From positions 1 to 53,099 of the IMG/VR virus record IMGVR_UViG_3300028361_000502: a stretch of 53,099 nt of DNA, one strand, 5' to 3'. A program made the position numbers and the translations under genes. This DNA is from a virus. The notes beneath the pieces are model-generated. The model was not told the DNA's origin, searched no databases, and saw only the letters and a list, made by a program, of their open reading frames with translations. Positions 8,121 to 27,929 of this stretch are shown here, one piece after another (positions within the stretch are counted from its first letter, which is position 1; every line of letters begins with the position of its first letter).

Positions 8121-8792
8121 TTATTGATTAGTTTTTTGTTGTTGCTGATACTTAACGTTACAGTCTTTGTATTTTTCTATTAAAATATCAGCCACAGTGT
8201 CACTACACACAGTTTCATAATGAGTGTGTGGAACTTCAACATGCGCCATGTCCGATCTGCTTTTCATACTTTCAATAGTAACAACACCATCGTTGGGCCC
8301 ACCGTGATATGGTACTTGACCAGTTGTGCTTACAACCTGTGTCCAAGGCACTGTTAATTTTATTTCCTGTGCTAGGCGTATAGGATCTGCGTTGCGTCCA
8401 ATATCTCTAAACAGCGGATAGTTTGGCACAATATATTTGGCCCAATCTGCTGTGCTGCTGCCAGCGAACGGTGTGCTGATGCTTACGCCGCCTAGTACTC
8501 TAATGTACTTGGTAAGGTGCAGAGCATACAGCCCGCCTAGACTGTGTCCTATAACAAAGTGTGGACCACGCCCTTGCACTTCTTCAGTGATCATATCTAA
8601 ATTATCACTGAAGCGATTCATACTGCTGTAGTTTACAAATATTTCTTTTGAAAAGTTTGTTTGACTTCTAAGATATTTAAAACTTAAATCAGTTTGATTG
8701 GCACCGTGTATCCAGATAACATTAACATTATCTGTTTCTTGTCCGTTGTACTCTGTGTCTTTGTTGAATATATTTTTAAAATAATTTATCAT
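8121..8792 (-). CDS. Alpha/beta hydrolase (lipase/esterase-like)
   Basis: The 223-aa protein has the nucleophile elbow G-H-S-L-G-G at about residues 82-87. A candidate acid lies in G-P-N-D-G-V-V (about 166-172) and a candidate base in H-T-H-Y-E (about 190-194), giving a Ser-Asp-His triad. An early I-H-G-A-N strand marks the oxyanion region. There is no signal peptide. It would hydrolyse an ester, perhaps of membrane lipid. Its ATG overlaps the stop of the CHASE2 cyclase (ATGA), so the two are translated together. Confidence 0.8.
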   Translation of the reverse strand: MINYFKNIFNKDTEYNGQETDNVNVIWIHGANQTDLSFKYLRSQTNFSKEIFVNYSSMNRFSDNLDMITEEVQGRGPHFVIGHSLGGLYALHLTKYIRVLGGVSISTPFAGSSTADWAKYIVPNYPLFRDIGRNADPIRLAQEIKLTVPWTQVVSTTGQVPYHGGPNDGVVTIESMKSRSDMAHVEVPHTHYETVCSDTVADILIEKYKDCNVKYQQQQKTNQ

Positions 8793-10839: not shown

Positions 10840-10841
10840 TC

Positions 10842-10869
10842 AAAAATATAGGGCCAAGGGCCCTATATT
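10842..10869 (-). terminator. Intrinsic terminator after curli operon
   Basis: A perfect 11-bp stem (AATATAGGGCC / GGCCCTATATT) with a 3-base loop is followed on the minus strand by TTTTT. It separates the curli operon from the cyclase gene. Confidence 0.85.
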
Positions 10870-10887
10870 GAAATGGTACAATGATGA

Positions 10888-12033
10888 TTACTGTTGGTCA
10901 ACAGTTAGGTTACAGGTTCCAGTAGTACAAACACCGTTTACCACTGTGTTGTCACTTAGGTCATGTGGTAGACTGTACAGTTGGTTCGTGTCGCCGCTCT
11001 GTGTTAGGCTAAAGTTCCAGTTGCCGCCTGAGTTGGTCAATTCAACTGTTGCTGCGTGATTGCCCAAGCCTTCTTGTAGCACTGTGACTGTGGCATTGTC
11101 GCCTAAACTTATAAGATCCAAGTAGTGTTCGCCTGATCCTTGTTGTGTGATTGTGTATGTGCCAAAACTACCATCGATGTCTAAGAACGCTTGCTTTTCG
11201 CTGTCACCCTGCTGTAAGAATGTAAGAGTGTTTGAATCGCCTACTATGTTGATGTCAGCAAAGTTTCTGTCAGTGTTGGTACCGCTCTGTGTGATGTCAG
11301 TTATGTTTGAATTACCCTGTAAGTACATTAACAAATAGTTACCATTGCTTAGTTGTGTGATGTCAACATCGTTGCTGTCGCCTATGATGGTCAAGTCAAT
11401 GTTGTTGCCTGTGGTTATGGCATTTGCGGCGTCTACCTGTGCCTGTTGTACACTGGTGATAGCACTTCTAAACACTGGTGTTGGTGCAGGAGCAGGTGCT
11501 GGCGCTGATGCAGTTTCGCCTGCTGCTAGAGGAGTTGTTGAATCAGGGACCCAAGTGCTCATAGTAGCGTTTGATGGATTTTCTTCTTCAACTGTAAATG
11601 AAGCACTATCACCTATGCTGTAGCCTTGAGCGGTTGTGATAAGTGTTCCCCAAAACCCGTCGCCCAAGTAGAATATAGCGCCGTCTGCTAGAGCTCGAAA
11701 TGTACCTGTGTTGTGGATTACTTCAGCAACTGTTCCGTCACTGTTGTATAGTGCCATACCATAAGTACCTGGATTGGTTGTTGAATCAAAAAACGCAAAG
11801 TATTGACTTGCGCTGTTGATATTTGCATAGTCTGTTGAGGTCATTCTAGATGAACTTGGTACACTTCTGTACAGATAGCTGTAGCCGCTTGTATTAAGTG
11901 TTCCGCCGCTTATACCCCATTGTACATCAAATATCTGTGCTGTACTAAATTTACCTGTTGTGATATCAGCCCATGCTGCTGAGGAAAATGTTAGTACAAA
12001 AAATACTGTTATTATTCTTATTAAATTTTTCAT
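10888..12033 (-). CDS. Large curlin-like secreted protein
   Basis: The start at 12033 gives a classical signal peptide (cleavage after about residue 24, AAWA). The upstream extension of the frame is shadow sequence over the FecR gene. Residues about 25-200 form a polar beta-rich domain. Residues about 215-370 carry curlin-type repeats with N-x-x-x-I/V-x-Q-x-G-x-x-N spacing (for example ITDITQSGTN, LTFLQQGDS, YTITQQGSGE, VTVLQEGLGN, FSLTQSGDTN). This is the amyloid-repeat pattern of CsgA/CsgB. It is probably exported through the adjacent CsgG. The ATG overlaps the FecR stop by four bases. Its N-terminal domain is not found in CsgA. Confidence 0.75.
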   Translation of the reverse strand: MKNLIRIITVFFVLTFSSAAWADITTGKFSTAQIFDVQWGISGGTLNTSGYSYLYRSVPSSSRMTSTDYANINSASQYFAFFDSTTNPGTYGMALYNSDGTVAEVIHNTGTFRALADGAIFYLGDGFWGTLITTAQGYSIGDSASFTVEEENPSNATMSTWVPDSTTPLAAGETASAPAPAPAPTPVFRSAITSVQQAQVDAANAITTGNNIDLTIIGDSNDVDITQLSNGNYLLMYLQGNSNITDITQSGTNTDRNFADINIVGDSNTLTFLQQGDSEKQAFLDIDGSFGTYTITQQGSGEHYLDLISLGDNATVTVLQEGLGNHAATVELTNSGGNWNFSLTQSGDTNQLYSLPHDLSDNTVVNGVCTTGTCNLTVDQQ

Positions 12034-13124
12034 TGTGTTTGTACCACCTTTATGTTTACGTTTGTGCCACCGTCTTGTATTTGTATAGTTGCGGCATATT
12101 CGTCTTGTATGAGACTGTAGGTCCCGTGTGTGTCTGCGCTGGTTGTGATCACACTTATATGAGGCTGTCTGTCGCTTTCTATATAGATGTAACTTTCGTT
12201 TGCTGCCCATTGTATCCAAGGATATTTGTTTATACCTGGTAGAATAGCATTTTCGTCTTCAGACAATTCATCTTCGTCTAGGCCTGTGCTGAGGTTCAAC
12301 AGGTTATCCAAGTAATCATTGTTCAGTCTGTTTATATTAAGTTCTGAAAAATTCAATAGATCCTCGTCAAGTAGGTTTGCACTGAGTTGTTCGTATTCCA
12401 ATAAGTCGAAATCCAATGCTGTTGTCTGTTCTTCTTCCTCTTCTTCAGTGCCAAAGCCATTGACAAACTCTGAAGGAGGAACAATGATTAGATTGTTGTT
12501 GATATCGTTTGGACCTAACAGTAGACGCTTGGGGTCACTTGGCATCATAGCCAAACTGCTTACCATAGTGCCTTGATATGCTTCTGTAAGCAGCACTGAT
12601 CCTGCTGCGTTGCTCACTGTGATAGCGCCAACTGGACATTCATCTTCGTCGAATGTAGCGTCAGGACAGCTGGGCAATAGAATCACTAGACTGCGACCCA
12701 GTTCATCCACAGTCATACTAAAGTCTGTGCCTCTAACTGTGATGCTGGCAGTGGGTGTAGTAATGCTTACACGATCTCTGCTGTTCTTTGCTATTCTGCC
12801 TGATGCCATCTGTACAGTGCCAAGTGCCACACGCATACTCACACTGCCAGTGCCGGTGTTGGCGTCATACACAAAGTCGTCAATCACCAATTCACTCTGT
12901 TCAGTAATTCGCACTTTTGAATCGTCTTCGAATGTGATTTCTAGATTGGTTCTAGCAGTGATAAGTTTGTCCAGCATTTCCACACCAAAGCCTGTTTGTT
13001 CGAAAACAAGTTCTTCTTGACTGCGCACAGCGCCAGCAGGATTTCCATCAAACTCTGTGATGCTGCCTACTTCAGCAAGACCTATGCAGGGCGTTAATAT
13101 CATTATACCAATCCAACGCCACAT
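12030..13124 (-). CDS. FecR-domain secreted protein with curlin-like C-terminus
   Basis: A signal peptide (about residues 1-17) is followed by a FecR-type beta domain (about 70-160: VRITEQSELVIDDF, R-V-S-I-T-T-P-T-A-S-I-T-V-R-G-T-D-F). That V-R-G-T-D/E-F signature is diagnostic of the FecR family. An acidic, Leu/Asn-rich middle follows, then a C-terminal strand with curlin-like spacing (ATIQIQDGGTNVNI). It lies between two curlin-like genes, so it is likely a periplasmic or surface accessory of the fibre system. The role is inference. Confidence 0.75.
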   Translation of the reverse strand: MWRWIGIMILTPCIGLAEVGSITEFDGNPAGAVRSQEELVFEQTGFGVEMLDKLITARTNLEITFEDDSKVRITEQSELVIDDFVYDANTGTGSVSMRVALGTVQMASGRIAKNSRDRVSITTPTASITVRGTDFSMTVDELGRSLVILLPSCPDATFDEDECPVGAITVSNAAGSVLLTEAYQGTMVSSLAMMPSDPKRLLLGPNDINNNLIIVPPSEFVNGFGTEEEEEEQTTALDFDLLEYEQLSANLLDEDLLNFSELNINRLNNDYLDNLLNLSTGLDEDELSEDENAILPGINKYPWIQWAANESYIYIESDRQPHISVITTSADTHGTYSLIQDEYAATIQIQDGGTNVNIKVVQTQ

Positions 13125-13125
13125 C

Positions 13126-13815
13126 TTAGTTTTGCAATATGTCTACTGTGTTGCTGCTGCCTGTCACAGTCATATTCACATAGGTGTAGCCCATTGCAGT
13201 TTGTTGATCAACACTGATAGTATTGCTGTCACCGTCCACAGTCATACTGACTTGATTGAACCCGCCTGCACTGGTTTGAAACAGATTGATTTCGTTGAAG
13301 TTGCTGCTGGTGCTTTGTCCAACATCAACTATGTTAACAGCATCAGCACTGTCCAGTGCATAATTGATGATGTTGTCGCTACCAATAATGTTTGTGGTTG
13401 TGTCAGTGTTGTTTACAATTATACCATTACACACACTGTTGGTGTAGGTCTGGCAATAGGTCATTACGTTGTCACTGCCCACTATGTTTGTGGTAAATGT
13501 ATTGTTCATACCGCCAAAGATTTCTCCAGTGATGATGTTCATATCGCCTGTGGCAGTGTAGTTAAATGTAGTAGTACTAGCGCCTGATTCAAACTCTAGG
13601 TCTGCTTGGTTGGCATCGCCACTCTGTGTAATATTAACAGTGATGTCATCACCTTCAAGGTTCATTGGATCAGATTCTGTGTTGATTCTGTTGTTGCCGT
13701 TTTCCTGTAGTACGTTTACAGTTAGGTCGCCACCAGCTTGATCAATGTAAACTTCGCTGGCCATTGCTGTGCTTGCCAGCAGTGAGAACACGAGTGTGGT
13801 TATAATTTTTTTCAT
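13126..13815 (-). CDS. Curlin-like fibre subunit (CsgA/CsgB-like)
   Basis: 229 aa with an N-terminal signal peptide ending A-M-A-S. Most of the mature chain is Asn/Ser/Thr/Gln-rich with repeating strands such as VNVLQENGNN, VNITQSGDAN, NIVGSDNVM, NIIGSDNII, TISVDQQT and VDILQN, matching curlin Q/N-ladder spacing. It would be the secreted amyloid subunit or nucleator exported by CsgG. Two cysteines near the middle are unusual for curlins. Its AAGAGGGC ribosome site is shared with csgF and others. Confidence 0.78.
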   Translation of the reverse strand: MKKIITTLVFSLLASTAMASEVYIDQAGGDLTVNVLQENGNNRINTESDPMNLEGDDITVNITQSGDANQADLEFESGASTTTFNYTATGDMNIITGEIFGGMNNTFTTNIVGSDNVMTYCQTYTNSVCNGIIVNNTDTTTNIIGSDNIINYALDSADAVNIVDVGQSTSSNFNEINLFQTSAGGFNQVSMTVDGDSNTISVDQQTAMGYTYVNMTVTGSSNTVDILQN

Positions 13816-13840
13816 TTTTTGCCCTCTTGATAAGTTAATC

Positions 13841-14620
13841 TTATTCTTGTTGTTGGATGGACCAGATACCGTTGTCTGCTCCCTCCTTTATCATTTCTAC
13901 TATAGCTGCTTGTATAGCCAATCTCACAGCGTGATTCACGCTTTCGTTTTGACTGTTGCCTATTTCCAGTTCAACTGCTTCTGTGCCCAGTTCAATAAAG
14001 CGGAATATACCCATGTTTGTGCTGGTGCTTACCACTGTCTTTGTCACAGCCGTTGATGTAAGTATCTCACCAGTTTGTACACTCACACATCTCATACTGA
14101 TAGTGATCACATCTTCTCTGTATTGAGTATATGGTCCTATGCCTAGGTAACGTGCTCCAGCGCCACCTGTTAGTGTGTTGCTGTCATAGCCAACTATAGC
14201 GCCCTCTATAATCAGTCCAGCAAACATCAGTGGTGCTAGTTGTGTTTCGTCGCCCACGCTTTCACGTGTTTGTCTAATAATCTGTCTTTCACGTGATAGG
14301 TTTTCAAGTCCCACACGCTCTACTACTTTGAACCAAGTGCCATCGCCTACATCACGCAGTGCTTTGATAACGTATTCACTTGCGCCCTGTGTTACTGCTG
14401 TTGATATGTTGGCCAGTCTGTCACTGGGCATACGTTGTCCAGTCTTGTCTTGAAATTCATACACTGCTGCCACCATAGGTCCTGCTAGTGGAGGTAGTGC
14501 GTTCAAGTATTCTGCGTCAGTGATTACAACCTGTGCTGGTTCGCTCTCTATTCTGTTCACAGTACTGGCACAGCCTGCGAGCAGTGCGGTGGATAATAAT
14601 ACAGCCAATAGTATTTTCAT
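13841..14620 (-). CDS. csgG: Curli secretion channel lipoprotein CsgG
   Basis: A 259-aa outer-membrane lipoprotein: lipobox LLAGC at residues 12-16, then P-L-A-G-P-M-V-A-A-V-Y-E-F-x-D-x-T-G-Q, which is the conserved CsgG start. Later blocks include W-F-K-V-V-E-R, L-I-x-E-G-A-I-V-G-Y-D-S-N and G-A-G-A-R-Y-L-G-I-G, the recognised CsgG core. Length is close to E. coli CsgG. It should form the nonameric export pore for curlin subunits. Its ATG is fused to the csgF stop (TAATG). In a phage it might also act as an envelope pore. Confidence 0.93.
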   Translation of the reverse strand: MKILLAVLLSTALLAGCASTVNRIESEPAQVVITDAEYLNALPPLAGPMVAAVYEFQDKTGQRMPSDRLANISTAVTQGASEYVIKALRDVGDGTWFKVVERVGLENLSRERQIIRQTRESVGDETQLAPLMFAGLIIEGAIVGYDSNTLTGGAGARYLGIGPYTQYREDVITISMRCVSVQTGEILTSTAVTKTVVSTSTNMGIFRFIELGTEAVELEIGNSQNESVNHAVRLAIQAAIVEMIKEGADNGIWSIQQQE

Positions 14621-15081
14621 TAGAACGCAAACTCCCCAGTTGGCACGTCAAAGCTGCTGGTCAGTTCACCGCTTGAATTGTACACTTCTACGTAGATTCT
14701 ATCGTCTATATCTCGCTTCCAGCGTATGTTGTCACCAAACGGAGTAGTTGCTTCTGCCCATTCGCCCACAACGGTTGTGCCGCCTTCGCCAAACAATGCG
14801 TCTGCTATCTGTCTACTCAATTGAGCATAGATTCTACTTTCTAGATTGTTTTGAAACTTGTAAGCGTTGGTGTTTCTATCGTCACGCTCTGCTCTGTCTA
14901 TTTCAGCCTGTGCATCTGCACGAATCTTATCTCTGCGTTGCTGTTCCAACTGTTCGATTGTGAGAACATGTGTGCTGTATCCGTTGCCGCTGAACGCAGG
15001 CGAGTTGAAGCCAAACGTAAGTTCGCTTGCGTTTACAGAAGTAGCCAGAAATAGTGGCACAATCCAAAATAGTTTTTTCAT
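14620..15081 (-). CDS. csgF: Curli assembly protein CsgF
   Basis: 153 aa with a signal peptide (cleavage near VNA-S). The mature N-terminus has the CsgF signature F-x-F-N-S-P-A-F-S-G-N-G that docks into the CsgG constriction, followed by the E-Q-L-E-Q-Q-R-R helix and a C-terminal domain with F-x-N-N-L-E-S-R-I-Y-A-Q-L-S. CsgF extends the CsgG channel and links secretion to nucleation. It is the first gene of the operon csgF-csgG-curlin-fecR-curlin; a late-type promoter lies about 45 bases upstream. Confidence 0.92.
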   Translation of the reverse strand: MKKLFWIVPLFLATSVNASELTFGFNSPAFSGNGYSTHVLTIEQLEQQRRDKIRADAQAEIDRAERDDRNTNAYKFQNNLESRIYAQLSRQIADALFGEGGTTVVGEWAEATTPFGDNIRWKRDIDDRIYVEVYNSSGELTSSFDVPTGEFAF

Positions 15082-15125: not shown

Positions 15126-15134
15126 CTATTTATC
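15126..15134 (-). promoter_or_regulatory. T4-type late promoter of curli operon
   Basis: GATAAATAG on the minus strand about 45 bases before csgF. It is the only promoter-like element in the gap between 15082 and 15170, and it suggests late expression of the curli operon. Confidence 0.5.
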
Positions 15135-16700: not shown

Positions 16701-16709
16701 GTATTTATA
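16701..16709 (-). promoter_or_regulatory. T4-type late promoter (perfect consensus)
   Basis: TATAAATAC on the minus strand, 19 bases before the 503-aa gene, matching the T4 late consensus exactly. Confidence 0.75.
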
Positions 16710-17397
16710 CTATTTTAGGGAACAACATGTCACGACAGAATACATCAACAGACGCTTCATCTAAGCCTAGGCTCTTCATAGTTTTAGCTGTATGGGGATT
16801 CTGCTGTTGATTTTCGCAGTACCAGTTTTGTGCTTTTATACTCTCGTCACGATCCGCAGTGTGATCGAAAATTCTTATTTCTTCAACGTAAGCATGAAGA
16901 TTGTTTACAGCTATGTTGATGATTGCTTCTGCTTCTTCTAGAGTGTTTACATTGCCCGCGGCCAACATACGTTCAGTAAAGATGTTACGAGCCCACTCCG
17001 GTAGTTCACGCTGCTTCTTGGGTACGAAGTTGTCTACACTATCATAGTAGCCGTGTACCATAGGATGATCAGGGTCTGTTGTGATGCTGAAATCGTGGAA
17101 GGCACCTGTGATTTTGTTCTTGCCTGCGATTACGTCAAAACCATAGATTGGTGCGTTGTTGTGTAGTTGTGGGAAAATGCACACATGCATCATCCAAAGA
17201 CCTTTTGTGTCTCTAGCATCCACAACGTCAATGTGGGCACGACGAATACTGTGATTGGCCCACACACGATTGATCCATCCGTTTTGGGGTTGATTAAAGT
17301 CTTCCAGTCCCTGCTCTGATATTTCTTCAGCAAAAGTATCAAACACTGCGATAATATCGTTTTGACATTCTATCAGTCGATCCCAAATAGCACTCAT
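16705..17397 (-). CDS. pcyX: Ferredoxin-dependent bilin reductase, PcyX type
   Basis: A 230-aa enzyme of the FDBR family (PcyA, PebS, PcyX), which reduces biliverdin IXalpha to a coloured bilin with electrons from ferredoxin. Comparison with PcyA by eye shows R-A-H-I-D at the position of H74/E76 (Glu replaced by Asp), M-H-V-C-I-F-P at H88, and G-F-D-V-I-A-G carrying the catalytic Asp105 equivalent. The C-terminal W-Y-C-E-N-Q-Q-Q-N-x-x-T block is also characteristic. It overlaps the heme oxygenase gene by four bases, so substrate and enzyme are made together. The PcyX assignment (versus PcyA/PebS) rests on the non-cyanophage setting and resemblance to the enzymes known from uncultured oceanic viruses. 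Confidence 0.85.
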   Translation of the reverse strand: MSAIWDRLIECQNDIIAVFDTFAEEISEQGLEDFNQPQNGWINRVWANHSIRRAHIDVVDARDTKGLWMMHVCIFPQLHNNAPIYGFDVIAGKNKITGAFHDFSITTDPDHPMVHGYYDSVDNFVPKKQRELPEWARNIFTERMLAAGNVNTLEEAEAIINIAVNNLHAYVEEIRIFDHTADRDESIKAQNWYCENQQQNPHTAKTMKSLGLDEASVDVFCRDMLFPKIV

Positions 17398-17972
17398 TCT
17401 GGCAACTCCGACATCTGTTCAAATAAACGTGCTGCAAAGTCAAAACAGAGATTTGCTTCTTCTGCCATTGAATCGTCACACCTGGCTCTGATTTGTTCTT
17501 TTAATTCTTTAGCGTTGTCGTGCTGGTACATAGTAGCACTGCCCGGAACTTTCTTAGCAATCATTTGTCCGCCGCTGAGATCACCCATGTGTCTAACATA
17601 GACATGTGCCATAACCCGATGCGGATCGTCTTTGATAGTCATTAGGTGATCCATGTATTCCTTTACCGCAGGCAACAGTGGAGGCTGATTGGGCTGAAAC
17701 TCTGCCCATAGTTCTTGATAGTCTTCGTGTATTTTAGGAGCAATTCTTAGATCCGACAGCCCATGCATCATGGCAAACATTTCTAATAGATTGTATTGAG
17801 GATGTTGATTAAACAAGTAGGTAGCATAGCGTTTCTTACTGACTGTGCCGTTCAACAGTTCTTGAGCAAACGGTTGTGTCTCTGCTGTTTCGTGCATACG
17901 CTGTGTAAGAGATCTTAGATTGTTGCCCGCTGTGTCTGCGTGTTTTTCGCTGTGCTTTCTTACACTATCCAT
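17394..17972 (-). CDS. ho1: Heme oxygenase, HO1 family
   Basis: A 192-aa all-helical enzyme that opens heme to biliverdin, Fe2+ and CO. The proximal-His helix (Q-R-M-H-E-T-A-E, His near residue 30) and the distal-helix signature G-D-L-S-G-G-Q-M (about 130-137) are both present, and A-H-V-Y-V-R-H-M precedes the latter as in the family. It overlaps the bilin reductase downstream (ATGA) and shares its start with the clpS stop (TAATG). It supplies biliverdin to the reductase and could also release iron for phage use. Confidence 0.93.
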   Translation of the reverse strand: MDSVRKHSEKHADTAGNNLRSLTQRMHETAETQPFAQELLNGTVSKKRYATYLFNQHPQYNLLEMFAMMHGLSDLRIAPKIHEDYQELWAEFQPNQPPLLPAVKEYMDHLMTIKDDPHRVMAHVYVRHMGDLSGGQMIAKKVPGSATMYQHDNAKELKEQIRARCDDSMAEEANLCFDFAARLFEQMSELPE

Positions 17973-18858: not shown

Positions 18859-19533
18859 TTATCTACCTATTGTTGTTTTTTCATATACACTATTATGTGT
18901 CTGAGTACAACGCACAAAAGTAGTACACTTTGATAACTGCTTGAGCTTAGAAGCCCCAGCATAGGTGCAGGTTGATCTGATGCCGCCAAGGATATCCTGT
19001 ACTGTATCAGCTACACTACCTCGGTAAGGTACCAAGACCGTCCTGCCTTCTGACGAACGATAGTTTTTCAATCCGCCAAAATGCTTGTCGTTTGCACTTT
19101 CACTGCTCATACCGTAGAATTGTACAAACTGTTTTGCTTCTACTAATTCTTCGCCGTTGTCATAGTGTATTTCGCCAGTCTTAAATGCTCTGTTGATAAC
19201 TTCGCCGCCGCCTTCATCGTGTCCAGCCAGCATACCACCCAGCATCACAAAGTCAGCACCCGCAGCAAATGCTTTGGCTACATCACCAGGAGTAGTACAT
19301 CCCCCGTCAGCAATGATATGACCACCAAGGCCGTGAGCAGCATCGGCACATTCGATAACTGCGGAAAGTTGCGGATATCCAACCCCGGTCTGCAATCTCG
19401 TCGTGCATACGCTATTATGTACCACTACACCCTCGATATTGTATGAATGATCTTCTTCGACTTCAAGATCATATGTGTATCCATCATATGGTTCAATTTC
19501 GAGTATATCTATTTCAACTAATTCAAATTTCAT
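18859..19533 (-). CDS. guaC: GMP reductase C-terminal part with split intein C-half
   Basis: Residues 1-40 are a split-intein C-fragment ([22 protein letters not shown], ending V-V-H-N), which is the standard intein end. The extein resumes with [15 protein letters not shown], the catalytic-Cys loop of GMP reductase, and continues through [13 protein letters not shown] and G-G-M-L-A-G-H to the family end G-G-I-R-S-T-C-T-Y. Protein trans-splicing with the preceding gene should rebuild the enzyme (GMP + NADPH to IMP + NH3). Its ATG follows the upstream TAG with no gap. Confidence 0.93.
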
Positions 19534-20481
19534 CTAAAATACTCCAGTCATTTTCTTTAATTTGTGATTCCCATATAACGAGATATCTATATCCGTTATC
19601 TTCTGCTTTAGAAGTAAATAATCCTTTGTTAAATCTTTTGCTTCGACCCATTCTGCATATTGATGAATATTATCATCTGTTACTGTTTCTCGATGTTTTT
19701 TATGTAAAACATAAAACTCGTGATTAGGAGTTGCTTTAATACCATTAATATTAACTATTGATTTTTTATCGTCAAATTTAAATGTATTAGTAACAGTTTT
19801 ATAAGATCCAGTGTGAGTTAAAACTTTTTCACCTTGTTTAATATCTTCGATATTCTTTAAACATTTATCAGTCTTAACTTTTTGCCCAGGAGCAAAACAT
19901 CCAGGTCCAATGCCAACTTTAACAATATCTGCTCCAGCAAGAATAAGTTCCTCCGTCATTTCACCTGTGACCACATTGCCTGCTATAATAACAAGATGTG
20001 GGAAACGTTTGCGTACTTCACGTACATGTGTTGTAAAGTGTTCTGAATATCCATTTGCAATGTCAATGCAAACATATTTTAGATTGTCTTCACACTTAGC
20101 ATACACGGCGCACAGCTTTTCAAAATCTGCTGTGCTGGTGCCTATGCTCATAGCCACATAGTCTGTGCGATTGAGTCCGTCACCATAATAGAACTCGATC
20201 AGTTCTTCCGCAGTGTAGGTTTTGACAAGGCAAGTAAAGATGCCTTGTGCGCCCAATGCATCTGCCATAGCAAATGTGCCAACACCGTCCATGTTAGCAG
20301 CCATGATAGGAATGCCTCGATAGTGTGGATCCTCTGTACAGTTGTCGGGGAAGTCTGGCACATAGTTTCTAAATATAAAACTACGTTCCAAGTCAACTTC
20401 TGAACGACTCTTAAGTGTGCTGCGCTTTGGGCGGATCAGCACATCCTTATAGTCTAGTCGTACTTCGTTGTCGATGCGCAT
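19534..20481 (-). CDS. guaC: GMP reductase N-terminal part with split intein N-half
   Basis: Residues 1-194 are the N-extein: L-D-Y-K-D-V-L-I-R-P-K-R, M-A-A-N-M-D-G-V-G-T-F and I-A-G-N-V-V-T-G, ending K-V-G-I-G-P-G. The intein N-half starts with Cys195 (C-F-A-P-G-Q-K-V) and includes the block-B motif A-T-P-N-H-E-F-Y-V at about 252-260; it runs to the stop at 19534 (121 aa). It resembles the split inteins described for IMPDH-like genes in environmental sequences. Here the two halves abut with no endonuclease gene between, and the split falls beside the catalytic Cys. Splicing must restore GPG/SVCTTR. Confidence 0.93.
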   Translation of the reverse strand: MRIDNEVRLDYKDVLIRPKRSTLKSRSEVDLERSFIFRNYVPDFPDNCTEDPHYRGIPIMAANMDGVGTFAMADALGAQGIFTCLVKTYTAEELIEFYYGDGLNRTDYVAMSIGTSTADFEKLCAVYAKCEDNLKYVCIDIANGYSEHFTTHVREVRKRFPHLVIIAGNVVTGEMTEELILAGADIVKVGIGPGCFAPGQKVKTDKCLKNIEDIKQGEKVLTHTGSYKTVTNTFKFDDKKSIVNINGIKATPNHEFYVLHKKHRETVTDDNIHQYAEWVEAKDLTKDYLLLKQKITDIDISLYGNHKLKKMTGVF

Positions 20482-25950: not shown

Positions 25951-26742
25951 TTAGAAGCTGAAGCTTACACCAGCGCCTACGCTGTTTGTTTCAGCGTCAA
26001 CGTTGTATGTGCCTTCTGCGTATACATTTAGACCATTGAAGTCATATGCTACACCAGCACCAACATTTTGAAATGCGTCCGCATCGTCACCGTTTACAAA
26101 CGCTGTAACGATCTTATAGCCTGCACTTGCTTCATAAGCAACTACTTCAGTAGCAGTTGCGTAGGTCACAATGCCACCAACCGCAACGTCAGCAGTTACA
26201 CTATAATCTGCTCGTACACCCACTGTGTAGTCTTCGCTGTCGACGTTGTAGTCTGCTACACCAGTAACAGCACCTGCACCAATGTCAAGTGTATAAGCAG
26301 CCTGTAGATTTTCAATGTCACCAATGTCAGTAGTGATGTCAGTGAATCCAACCAGCACTGCGGCTGCGCCAAATTCCACAATCAACGACTCGTGGTCGCT
26401 TGCAGGGTTTGCAATAGTATCGCCGCCTACGATTTCAAAATCATTACCGATAAAAATGTCACCCTGATCTCCAAAAGACACAGTAACAGCATCAGTTGCT
26501 ATGCCAAGTTGCCATTCGTCAACAGTCAAATTGCCAGCATCAACTGATTCAAGATTGAATCCGCTAAAAGCAAGGCCCGCGCCAGTATCAGCAGTTACAC
26601 CAAAACCCAGTGTGGTTTCAGCTACATAGTTGCCAGCTGTGTTTTCAGTAATTTCAACGCCAACTGAACCACCAAGTTCTGCTGCGGTGGTTGTGCCTGC
26701 TACGAATAGTGTGGCTACAGTTGCCATAAATAGATTGCGCAT
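25951..26742 (-). CDS. Outer-membrane porin-like beta-barrel protein
   Basis: 263 aa. The signal peptide is at 1-20 (A-G-T-T-T-A-A-E). The mature chain is alternating Val/Ala/Gly/Asp strands (for example Y-T-V-G-V-R-A-D-Y-S-V, V-A-V-G-G-I-V-T-Y-A-T-A) and ends in the barrel signature V-G-A-G-V-S-F-S-F with a terminal Phe. It should insert in the host outer membrane, perhaps to change permeability or block further infection (superinfection exclusion). Its own terminators on both sides (25897 and 26775) show a single-gene unit. It could derive from a host porin. Confidence 0.8.
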   Translation of the reverse strand: MRNLFMATVATLFVAGTTTAAELGGSVGVEITENTAGNYVAETTLGFGVTADTGAGLAFSGFNLESVDAGNLTVDEWQLGIATDAVTVSFGDQGDIFIGNDFEIVGGDTIANPASDHESLIVEFGAAAVLVGFTDITTDIGDIENLQAAYTLDIGAGAVTGVADYNVDSEDYTVGVRADYSVTADVAVGGIVTYATATEVVAYEASAGYKIVTAFVNGDDADAFQNVGAGVAYDFNGLNVYAEGTYNVDAETNSVGAGVSFSF

Positions 26743-27210: not shown

Positions 27211-27318
27211 TTATAGGCCGCCTAGTAACTCTTCTAGTTTCTTTTTACTCTGTCCACGAACCTTTGCAGCTATAATGTTCATCAATACGTCAATTGCGTC
27301 TTTAAGTGAATCAGTCAT
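27211..27318 (-). CDS. Very small hypothetical protein, 35 aa
   Basis: Its ATG shares the last bases of the alternative oxidase stop (TAATG), which gives strong coupling. The peptide MTDSLKDAIDVLMNIIAAKVRG ... ELLGGL is an amphipathic helix with a KKKLEELL end. The overlap supports translation. Confidence 0.5.
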   Translation of the reverse strand: MTDSLKDAIDVLMNIIAAKVRGQSKKKLEELLGGL

Positions 27319-27929
27319 TATATATTCCTTTTCATTCCTTTGATTAAGGTATCTGCCATGCTGTGGTTAACATCTGCGTGGCCTTGCTCGTCTGCTCTCA
27401 CTGCTATTACAACATCACGCAATGTTGCGTCATCTGCTAGATTATAATAGTCACGAGCAATGTTGGGTGCAGCGATATTCTCTACTCTGCCAGCGTCAAT
27501 TTCTTCCAGATAGTGAGTATAACTTACCACTGCTTGATCTTCAAAGTAGCCTACCATTCTGTGTGCTGTGGTTGGGAAGAATACGTAAAGAATAAAATAA
27601 AAGTGCCAAAACACAAACTGTGCAAATAGAATCAACAGTCTTTCAAAGCGACTTGGCTTTGCGATCTCAACAAAGATCATAAGATGCATACGCTCGTTTT
27701 CTGCTTCTTCTAGCAGCGTTTTGATCCAGCCACGTTCGTCTGGTGCTATGTTGCGCAGGCTGCGTAGGTGCTGCCACATACCTGCTACCATGCCTGGAAC
27801 ACCTGCCACAGTCTCTAGAACAACTGCACGATGTCCATAGCGTTTGGCGAAGAATGTGTCCGCGAACCAACGAAAAGTCATTGTTAAAAAATAAGCAACT
27901 CTATCACTGAAGTCTTTGGGCTGTCTCAT
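27318..27929 (-). CDS. aox: Alternative (ubiquinol) oxidase
   Basis: A 203-aa diiron membrane-bound oxidase that passes electrons from quinol to O2 without proton pumping. Iron ligands are visible: V-V-L-E-T-V-A-G at about 36-43 (Glu), E-N-E-R-M-H-L at about 77-83 (Glu, His), G-Y-F-E-D-Q-A at about 128-134, and R-A-D-E-Q-G-H at about 178-184 (Glu, His). The R-Y-G-H-R-A-V-V-L-E-T block is like proteobacterial enzymes. Cyanophages carry the related plastid-type PTOX; here the setting is not cyanobacterial. Its ATG overlaps the upstream membrane-protein gene by four bases. Confidence 0.93.
   Translation of the reverse strand: MRQPKDFSDRVAYFLTMTFRWFADTFFAKRYGHRAVVLETVAGVPGMVAGMWQHLRSLRNIAPDERGWIKTLLEEAENERMHLMIFVEIAKPSRFERLLILFAQFVFWHFYFILYVFFPTTAHRMVGYFEDQAVVSYTHYLEEIDAGRVENIAAPNIARDYYNLADDATLRDVVIAVRADEQGHADVNHSMADTLIKGMKRNI

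Follow-up and report, generated by a model that had tools for sequence, protein, structure and literature searches.

The window analyzed here is a 53,099-base virus record in IMG/VR (IMGVR_UViG_3300028361_000502; 42% GC). On its minus strand lie, in this order, csgF, csgG, a gene for a curlin-like subunit (curlin 1), a gene for a FecR-domain protein and a gene for a second curlin-like subunit (curlin 2). From sequence comparisons and structural models, we consider it reasonably probable that these genes form a phage curli (type VIII) system, probably expressed late, that would equip infected cells with an adhesive fibre of the curlin type.

The operon is not a new kind, since the module has been published for pelagiphages once in 2020 and twice in 2022; it is a further member of that module. 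In pelagimyophages, Zaragoza-Solas et al. (2020, PMC7029224) described csgF and csgG together with unknown genes linked to them, and put forward “sibling capture”. Buchholz et al. (2022, PMC9004378) took csgGF of phage Melnitz as an incomplete system and suggested a role in lysis; the deposited Melnitz genome annotation lists two curlin repeat proteins, FecR and a cyclase. Wittmers et al. (2022, PMC9599517) identified csgF, csgG, csgA/B, FecR, a second csgA/B and a cyclase in both pelagiphage families, expressed in metatranscriptomes, and stated that parts of the module do not lie within bacterial curli operons. The linkage of curlin subunits with FecR, offered as novel when the window was read from its sequence alone, had thus already been described. 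Four points we did not find in the three papers: a phage FecR that is secreted, has no anti-sigma part and carries a curlin-like tail; a second curlin of modular build; a CsgF that preserves its motif; and a counterpart of the operon in one cellular genome. Word searches of Wittmers et al. found neither “adhesin” nor “carbohydrate”.

Gene order, conservation and expression signals

The sequence-only reading described five co-directional genes with overlapping or nearly abutting ends, and both the run and its coordinates are correct (Table 1); it did not give the strand, which is minus for all five. Overlaps of 1 nucleotide (nt) between csgF and csgG and of 4 nt between fecR and the ATG of curlin 2 alternate with gaps of 25 nt (csgG to curlin 1) and 1 nt (curlin 1 to fecR). 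A sixth gene, which that reading left unnamed, begins 59 nt past curlin 2 and encodes a CHASE2-adenylate cyclase. Pfam searches bore out the names given to CsgF, CsgG and the FecR-domain protein, and CsgG also matches solved CsgG structures at 5e-49.

Searching IMG/VR with an alignment of phage-type CsgG returned at least 588 related stretches, and 80 loci were kept. Six GTDB loci that carry the whole module (L091, L093, L106, L108, L110 and L112) were left out as probable phage contigs in bins, judging by operon type and tree position. Genes were assigned by local profiles in the 42 viral loci that have 7 kb or more of sequence downstream of csgG; the order csgF-csgG-curlin-fecR-curlin-cyclase holds in 37 of them, and none lacks curlin 1 or FecR. 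The 58 ordinary cellular curli loci have no FecR and no cyclase. Median spacings among the first four genes are -1, 9.5 and -1 nt, and FecR and curlin 2, as called, overlap by a median of 44 nt. By gene order, the cyclase belongs to the conserved module, which is larger than first described.

The window operon shares its genes and their order, including FecR, the second curlin and the cyclase, with the pelagiphage module (HTVC008M, Melnitz and the HTVC023P type; PMC7029224, PMC9004378, PMC9599517). It differs in a CsgG only about 47–50% identical to those of HTVC008M and Melnitz, and in a curlin 2 N-terminal domain from a small clade. The podophage form has a directly adjoining histidine kinase, which the window operon lacks. 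With bacterial curli operons (csgBAC-csgDEFG and alphaproteobacterial forms) it has CsgG, CsgF and curlin-repeat subunits in common. In contrast to those operons, FecR and the cyclase are added, no CsgE was detected, and the phage-type CsgG forms its own clade (Shimodaira–Hasegawa-like approximate likelihood ratio test (SH-aLRT) support of 98) with an aliphatic constriction residue.

That clade includes one operon from a cellular genome. The metagenome-assembled genome (MAG) of Hyphomonas sp. TMED17 (L097/L201) carries csgF-csgG-curlin-fecR-CHASE2 cyclase among cellular genes on a 705-kb contig (L201, 6976–12999). The order is that of the phages, but there is one curlin, of 504 amino acids (aa), and the FecR protein lacks a curlin-like C-terminus. 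A search for other cellular full-length FecR relatives across the class and order returned only this MAG, 1 of 398 genomes of its order. By its sequence, the operon is one exception to the statement of Wittmers et al.; it rests on one MAG with a long branch and is compatible with a donor or a recipient.

A late-type promoter had been proposed before csgF, and we located the motif GATAAATA 46 nt upstream of it. In 34 of 79 relatives NATAAATA lies upstream of csgF, where shuffles give 9.5, and it precedes neither csgG nor fecR in any of them; for TATAAATA upstream of csgF the figures are 23 of 79 and 3.0. The terminator proposed after the last curlin gene is likewise there, as a hairpin of -15.8 kcal/mol (z -3.5). 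Since AATAAATA follows directly after this hairpin, at 10840, and precedes the cyclase gene, the cyclase may be transcribed separately in this phage. The terminator and the separate late-like motif before the cyclase set the window apart from the pelagiphage modules.

Predicted fibre subunits, pore and FecR-domain protein

Searches with the curlin-repeat hidden Markov model placed both window curlins just under the Pfam cut-off, which close relatives of curlin 2 pass (L005, 33 bits; L016, 32 bits; HTVC008M, 33 bits; L040, 47 bits). Iterated profiles built from the window curlins recover curlin genes beside csgFG in 165 loci. Signal peptides are predicted in 69 of 72 curlin 1 and 51 of 55 curlin 2 proteins. 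For curlin 2, an AlphaFold model made from 24 sequences gives a solenoid of twelve strands of about 8 residues each (residues 210–345), mostly at a predicted local distance difference test (pLDDT) score of 77–93. The top PDB match of this model is the E. coli CsgA fibril (8enq; VIA-align Z 15.5, 110 of 111 residues, root-mean-square deviation (rmsd) 8.7 Å). The high rmsd probably reflects differences in twist. CsgA is also the first match in Foldseek, at a non-significant E of 0.096; the VIA Z score is the stronger support for the modelled fold. Judged by profiles and this model, the curlin reading of the repeat proteins holds.

Curlin 2 is often the longer subunit: 31 of 55 reach 320 aa, compared with none of 72 curlin 1 proteins. 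The extra N-terminal part varies by phage. It is a PA14 domain in HTVC008M, L040 and L042 and an F5/8 type C domain in L008, L009 and L015, all above the Pfam cut-off, with L005 and L006 just under it for F5/8 type C; the N-terminal parts of the others were not recognised. The window's version is common to nine other open reading frames (ORFs), has no F5/8 insert and is modelled with low confidence (pLDDT below 50 across much of 17–61 and 111–208). By these comparisons, the second curlin is often modular, with a swappable N-terminal domain. Because exchangeable, often carbohydrate-binding-type domains sit on a fibre protein, we infer from domain type that curlin 2 is a modular adhesin-like subunit.

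These genes would also suit a surface coat for superinfection exclusion, as proposed by Wittmers et al. (PMC9599517), in which the fibre would hide the infected cell's receptors and would not gather new hosts. We regard this as unlikely, since the glycan-binding-type domains on curlin 2 point to an external partner.

On the export side, a lipobox is found in 85 of 88 phage CsgG proteins. CsgF keeps the motif F-x-x-x-P-x-F-x-G(xG), with no variation at Pro28, Phe30 and Gly32 from phages to Citrobacter. We take this motif to be the CsgG-binding part, as in the E. coli CsgG-CsgF complex. By sequence, phage CsgF thus retains the CsgG-binding motif, which disfavours the suggestion that it no longer pairs with CsgG. 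At the constriction, the position equivalent to E. coli Phe56 holds Ile or Leu in 42 of the 47 phage CsgG proteins that were scored, and 23 of 26 cellular CsgG proteins have an aromatic residue there. CsgE (PF10627) gave no match in the window, which is a fragment, or in HTVC008M, Melnitz and four other records; the E. coli control was positive. CsgE only raises yield and hence is not essential for curli (PMC7029224).

Buchholz et al. proposed CsgG and CsgF as a repurposed outer-membrane pore for lysis timing, pinholin- or secretin-like, which would make the other genes passengers; a lysis pore was also among the options of the sequence-only reading. The altered constriction residue agrees with this idea, as do the unclumped Melnitz cultures and the predicted narrowing of phage CsgG at its neck (PMC9004378). 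However, the linked curlin genes went unrecognised in that work. A lysis pore is harder to reconcile with csgG being followed by curlin 1 and FecR in every sufficiently long locus, with two secreted curlins, the second fold-compatible with CsgA and bearing adhesin-like domains, and with the preserved CsgF motif. These points leave it quite unlikely.

The FecR-domain protein does not look like its regulatory namesakes. Each of the 66 phage FecR proteins of full length begins with a signal-peptide-like stretch and, by a crude hydropathy rule, has no transmembrane segment after residue 60. Pfam searches found no anti-sigma domain and no further domain. Because of these three features the protein is not built like a FecR regulator, and we favour reading it as an anchor, at the surface or in the periplasm, over reading it as an iron regulator. 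An open CsgG pore through which the infected cell takes up large nutrients or cofactors, with FecR as an iron-responsive regulator, would suit the lack of a detected CsgE gate and echoes the uptake suggested in PMC7029224 and PMC9599517, but it is very unlikely given this FecR architecture and curlin subunits that uptake does not need.

The FecR C-terminus ends in a curlin-like strand (hxhxQ) in 66 of 70 relatives, compared with 64 of 80 curlin 1 proteins and 22 of 597 other ORFs. In profile comparisons, the last 60 FecR residues match the curlin 1 C-terminus at Prob 91.7 (E 8e-7) and curlin 2 at 70, with non-curlin controls at or below 6. A single-repeat profile of cellular curlins was rejected for individual FecR proteins because it scored them no better than noise (10% exceeded the 99th percentile of shuffles), even though 86% of the best hits fell at the C-terminus; the case for the tail therefore rests on the motif count and the profile-profile comparison. 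In the structural model, the FecR domain is followed by a disordered linker (about 205–290) and six evenly spaced strands (304–362). The modelled FecR domain matches the PupR domain 6ovk (Z 14.2 across 135 residues). Residues 16–112 also resemble the cell-surface anchoring domain of an RTX adhesin (5ix9; Z 6.2, 74 of 76 aligned, Foldseek E 0.04, profile E 0.041), which is a lead only. Taken from sequence, the tail suggests that phage FecR is a fibre-binding anchor.

Other alphaproteobacterial secreted FecR proteins carry RTX, VWA or Calx-beta domains. Four alphaproteobacterial loci without curli (L203, L216, L219 and L220) encode large secreted FecR proteins within a few kb of CHASE2 genes, and a cyclase domain accompanies CHASE2 in L216 and L219. 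This suggests a FecR-CHASE2 pairing of older date.

The cyclase has both CHASE2 and Guanylate_cyc domains and keeps the metal-binding Asp426 and Asp472, the substrate residue Lys468, and Arg554. In this branch (6 of 13 aligned) Ser550 takes the place of the transition-state Asn, so the activity of the cyclase is uncertain.

Proposed function

The window was first described as holding a complete curli operon. The pore, its partner and two secreted curlin-repeat proteins are all predicted, so the claim of a full export-and-fibre gene set stands at the level of sequence; “complete” is less apt, because CsgE was not found and the module extends to the cyclase.

As an adhesive fibre system, the operon would be expressed late in infection. 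Curlin 1 would be the main fibre subunit, and curlin 2 a decorated one, with an exchangeable N-terminal domain for binding to a surface or glycan. FecR would be a periplasmic or surface anchor joined to the fibre by its C-terminal curlin-like segment, and the CHASE2 cyclase would sense the condition of FecR or of the pore and raise intracellular cyclic AMP. The phage could benefit at lysis if infected cells clump with uninfected cells or particles, or through shielding from competing phages. A more elaborate arrangement, to which we give a small chance, makes FecR a threaded anchor and sensor. Its folded domain would be periplasmic, the roughly 90-residue disordered linker would run through or near CsgG, the curlin-like C-terminus would seed the fibre outside, and the CHASE2 cyclase would turn export into a cyclic AMP signal.

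Several observations weigh against an adhesive fibre. Both window curlins narrowly miss the Pfam cut-off, and the CsgA match has its high rmsd despite full coverage. The pore constriction is changed, and with no CsgE found its gating is unexplained. The cyclase has the Ser550 replacement, and the FecR-anchor and cyclic AMP steps are ones that we infer. Finally, the Melnitz-infected culture did not clump (Buchholz et al. 2022, PMC9004378).

Curli modules occur widely among ocean phages. A modular adhesin-like curlin 2 and a secreted, fibre-associated FecR protein would replace the vague picture of a regulator plus partial curli, and they raise specific questions: whether infected cells become sticky, what they would stick to, and whether fibre export is signalled via cyclic AMP. 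Such an operon would let a lytic virus turn streamlined planktonic hosts adhesive.

Coordinates and neighbouring genes

Table 1. Features of the curli module and its immediate surroundings in the window
Feature	Coordinates	Strand	Basis
Late-promoter-like GATAAATA	15127..15134	-	Direct sequence; upstream of csgF
csgF, predicted secreted CsgG partner, 153 aa	14620..15081	-	Pfam CsgF 4.5e-10; FxxxPxFxGxG motif
csgG, predicted outer-membrane pore lipoprotein, 259 aa	13841..14620	-	Pfam 4.3e-51; CsgG structures; lipobox
Curlin-like subunit 1, 229 aa, signal peptide	13126..13815	-	Curlin_rpt E 0.0021, under cut-off; iterated profile
Secreted FecR-domain protein, 364 aa, disordered linker, C-terminal curlin-like beta segment (~304-362)	12030..13124	-	Pfam FecR 5.5e-10; C-terminal motif; model
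Curlin-like subunit 2, 381 aa: signal peptide, N-terminal domain (~20-176), curlin solenoid (~210-345)	10888..12033	-	Curlin_rpt E 0.0013, under cut-off; relatives over cut-off; model
Intrinsic terminator-like hairpin after curlin 2	10845..10869	-	11-bp stem, T run
CHASE2-class III adenylate cyclase, 679 aa	8789..10828	-	Pfam CHASE2 7e-38, Guanylate_cyc 9e-15; conserved downstream in phage loci
Alpha/beta hydrolase-like gene	8121..8792	-	Abhydrolase_6 5.6e-6; overlaps cyclase by 4 nt

The hydrolase-like gene is possibly co-transcribed with the cyclase. A homologue adjoins the operon only in the near-identical loci L003 and L004, and the gene is outside the conserved module.

The gene content of the window is typical of T4-like marine myophages, for example in its heme oxygenase, its bilin reductase and its ribonucleotide reductase subunits with intein remnants. 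A nucleotide search of its first 25 kb against known phages gave no match. Just past the gene upstream of csgF, a ferredoxin-dependent bilin reductase lies beside a heme oxygenase (PcyX-like pair, 16705–17972, minus strand). The other genes of note are also on the minus strand. An IMP dehydrogenase/GMP reductase (18859–20481) is split into two adjacent ORFs by an intein-like region with Hint and intein splicing domains. A secreted beta-rich protein (25951–26742) looks by eye like an outer-membrane porin, with no Pfam match at 0.01. An alternative oxidase gene lies at 27318–27929 (Pfam AOX 1.5e-78), and the phage is not clearly a cyanophage.

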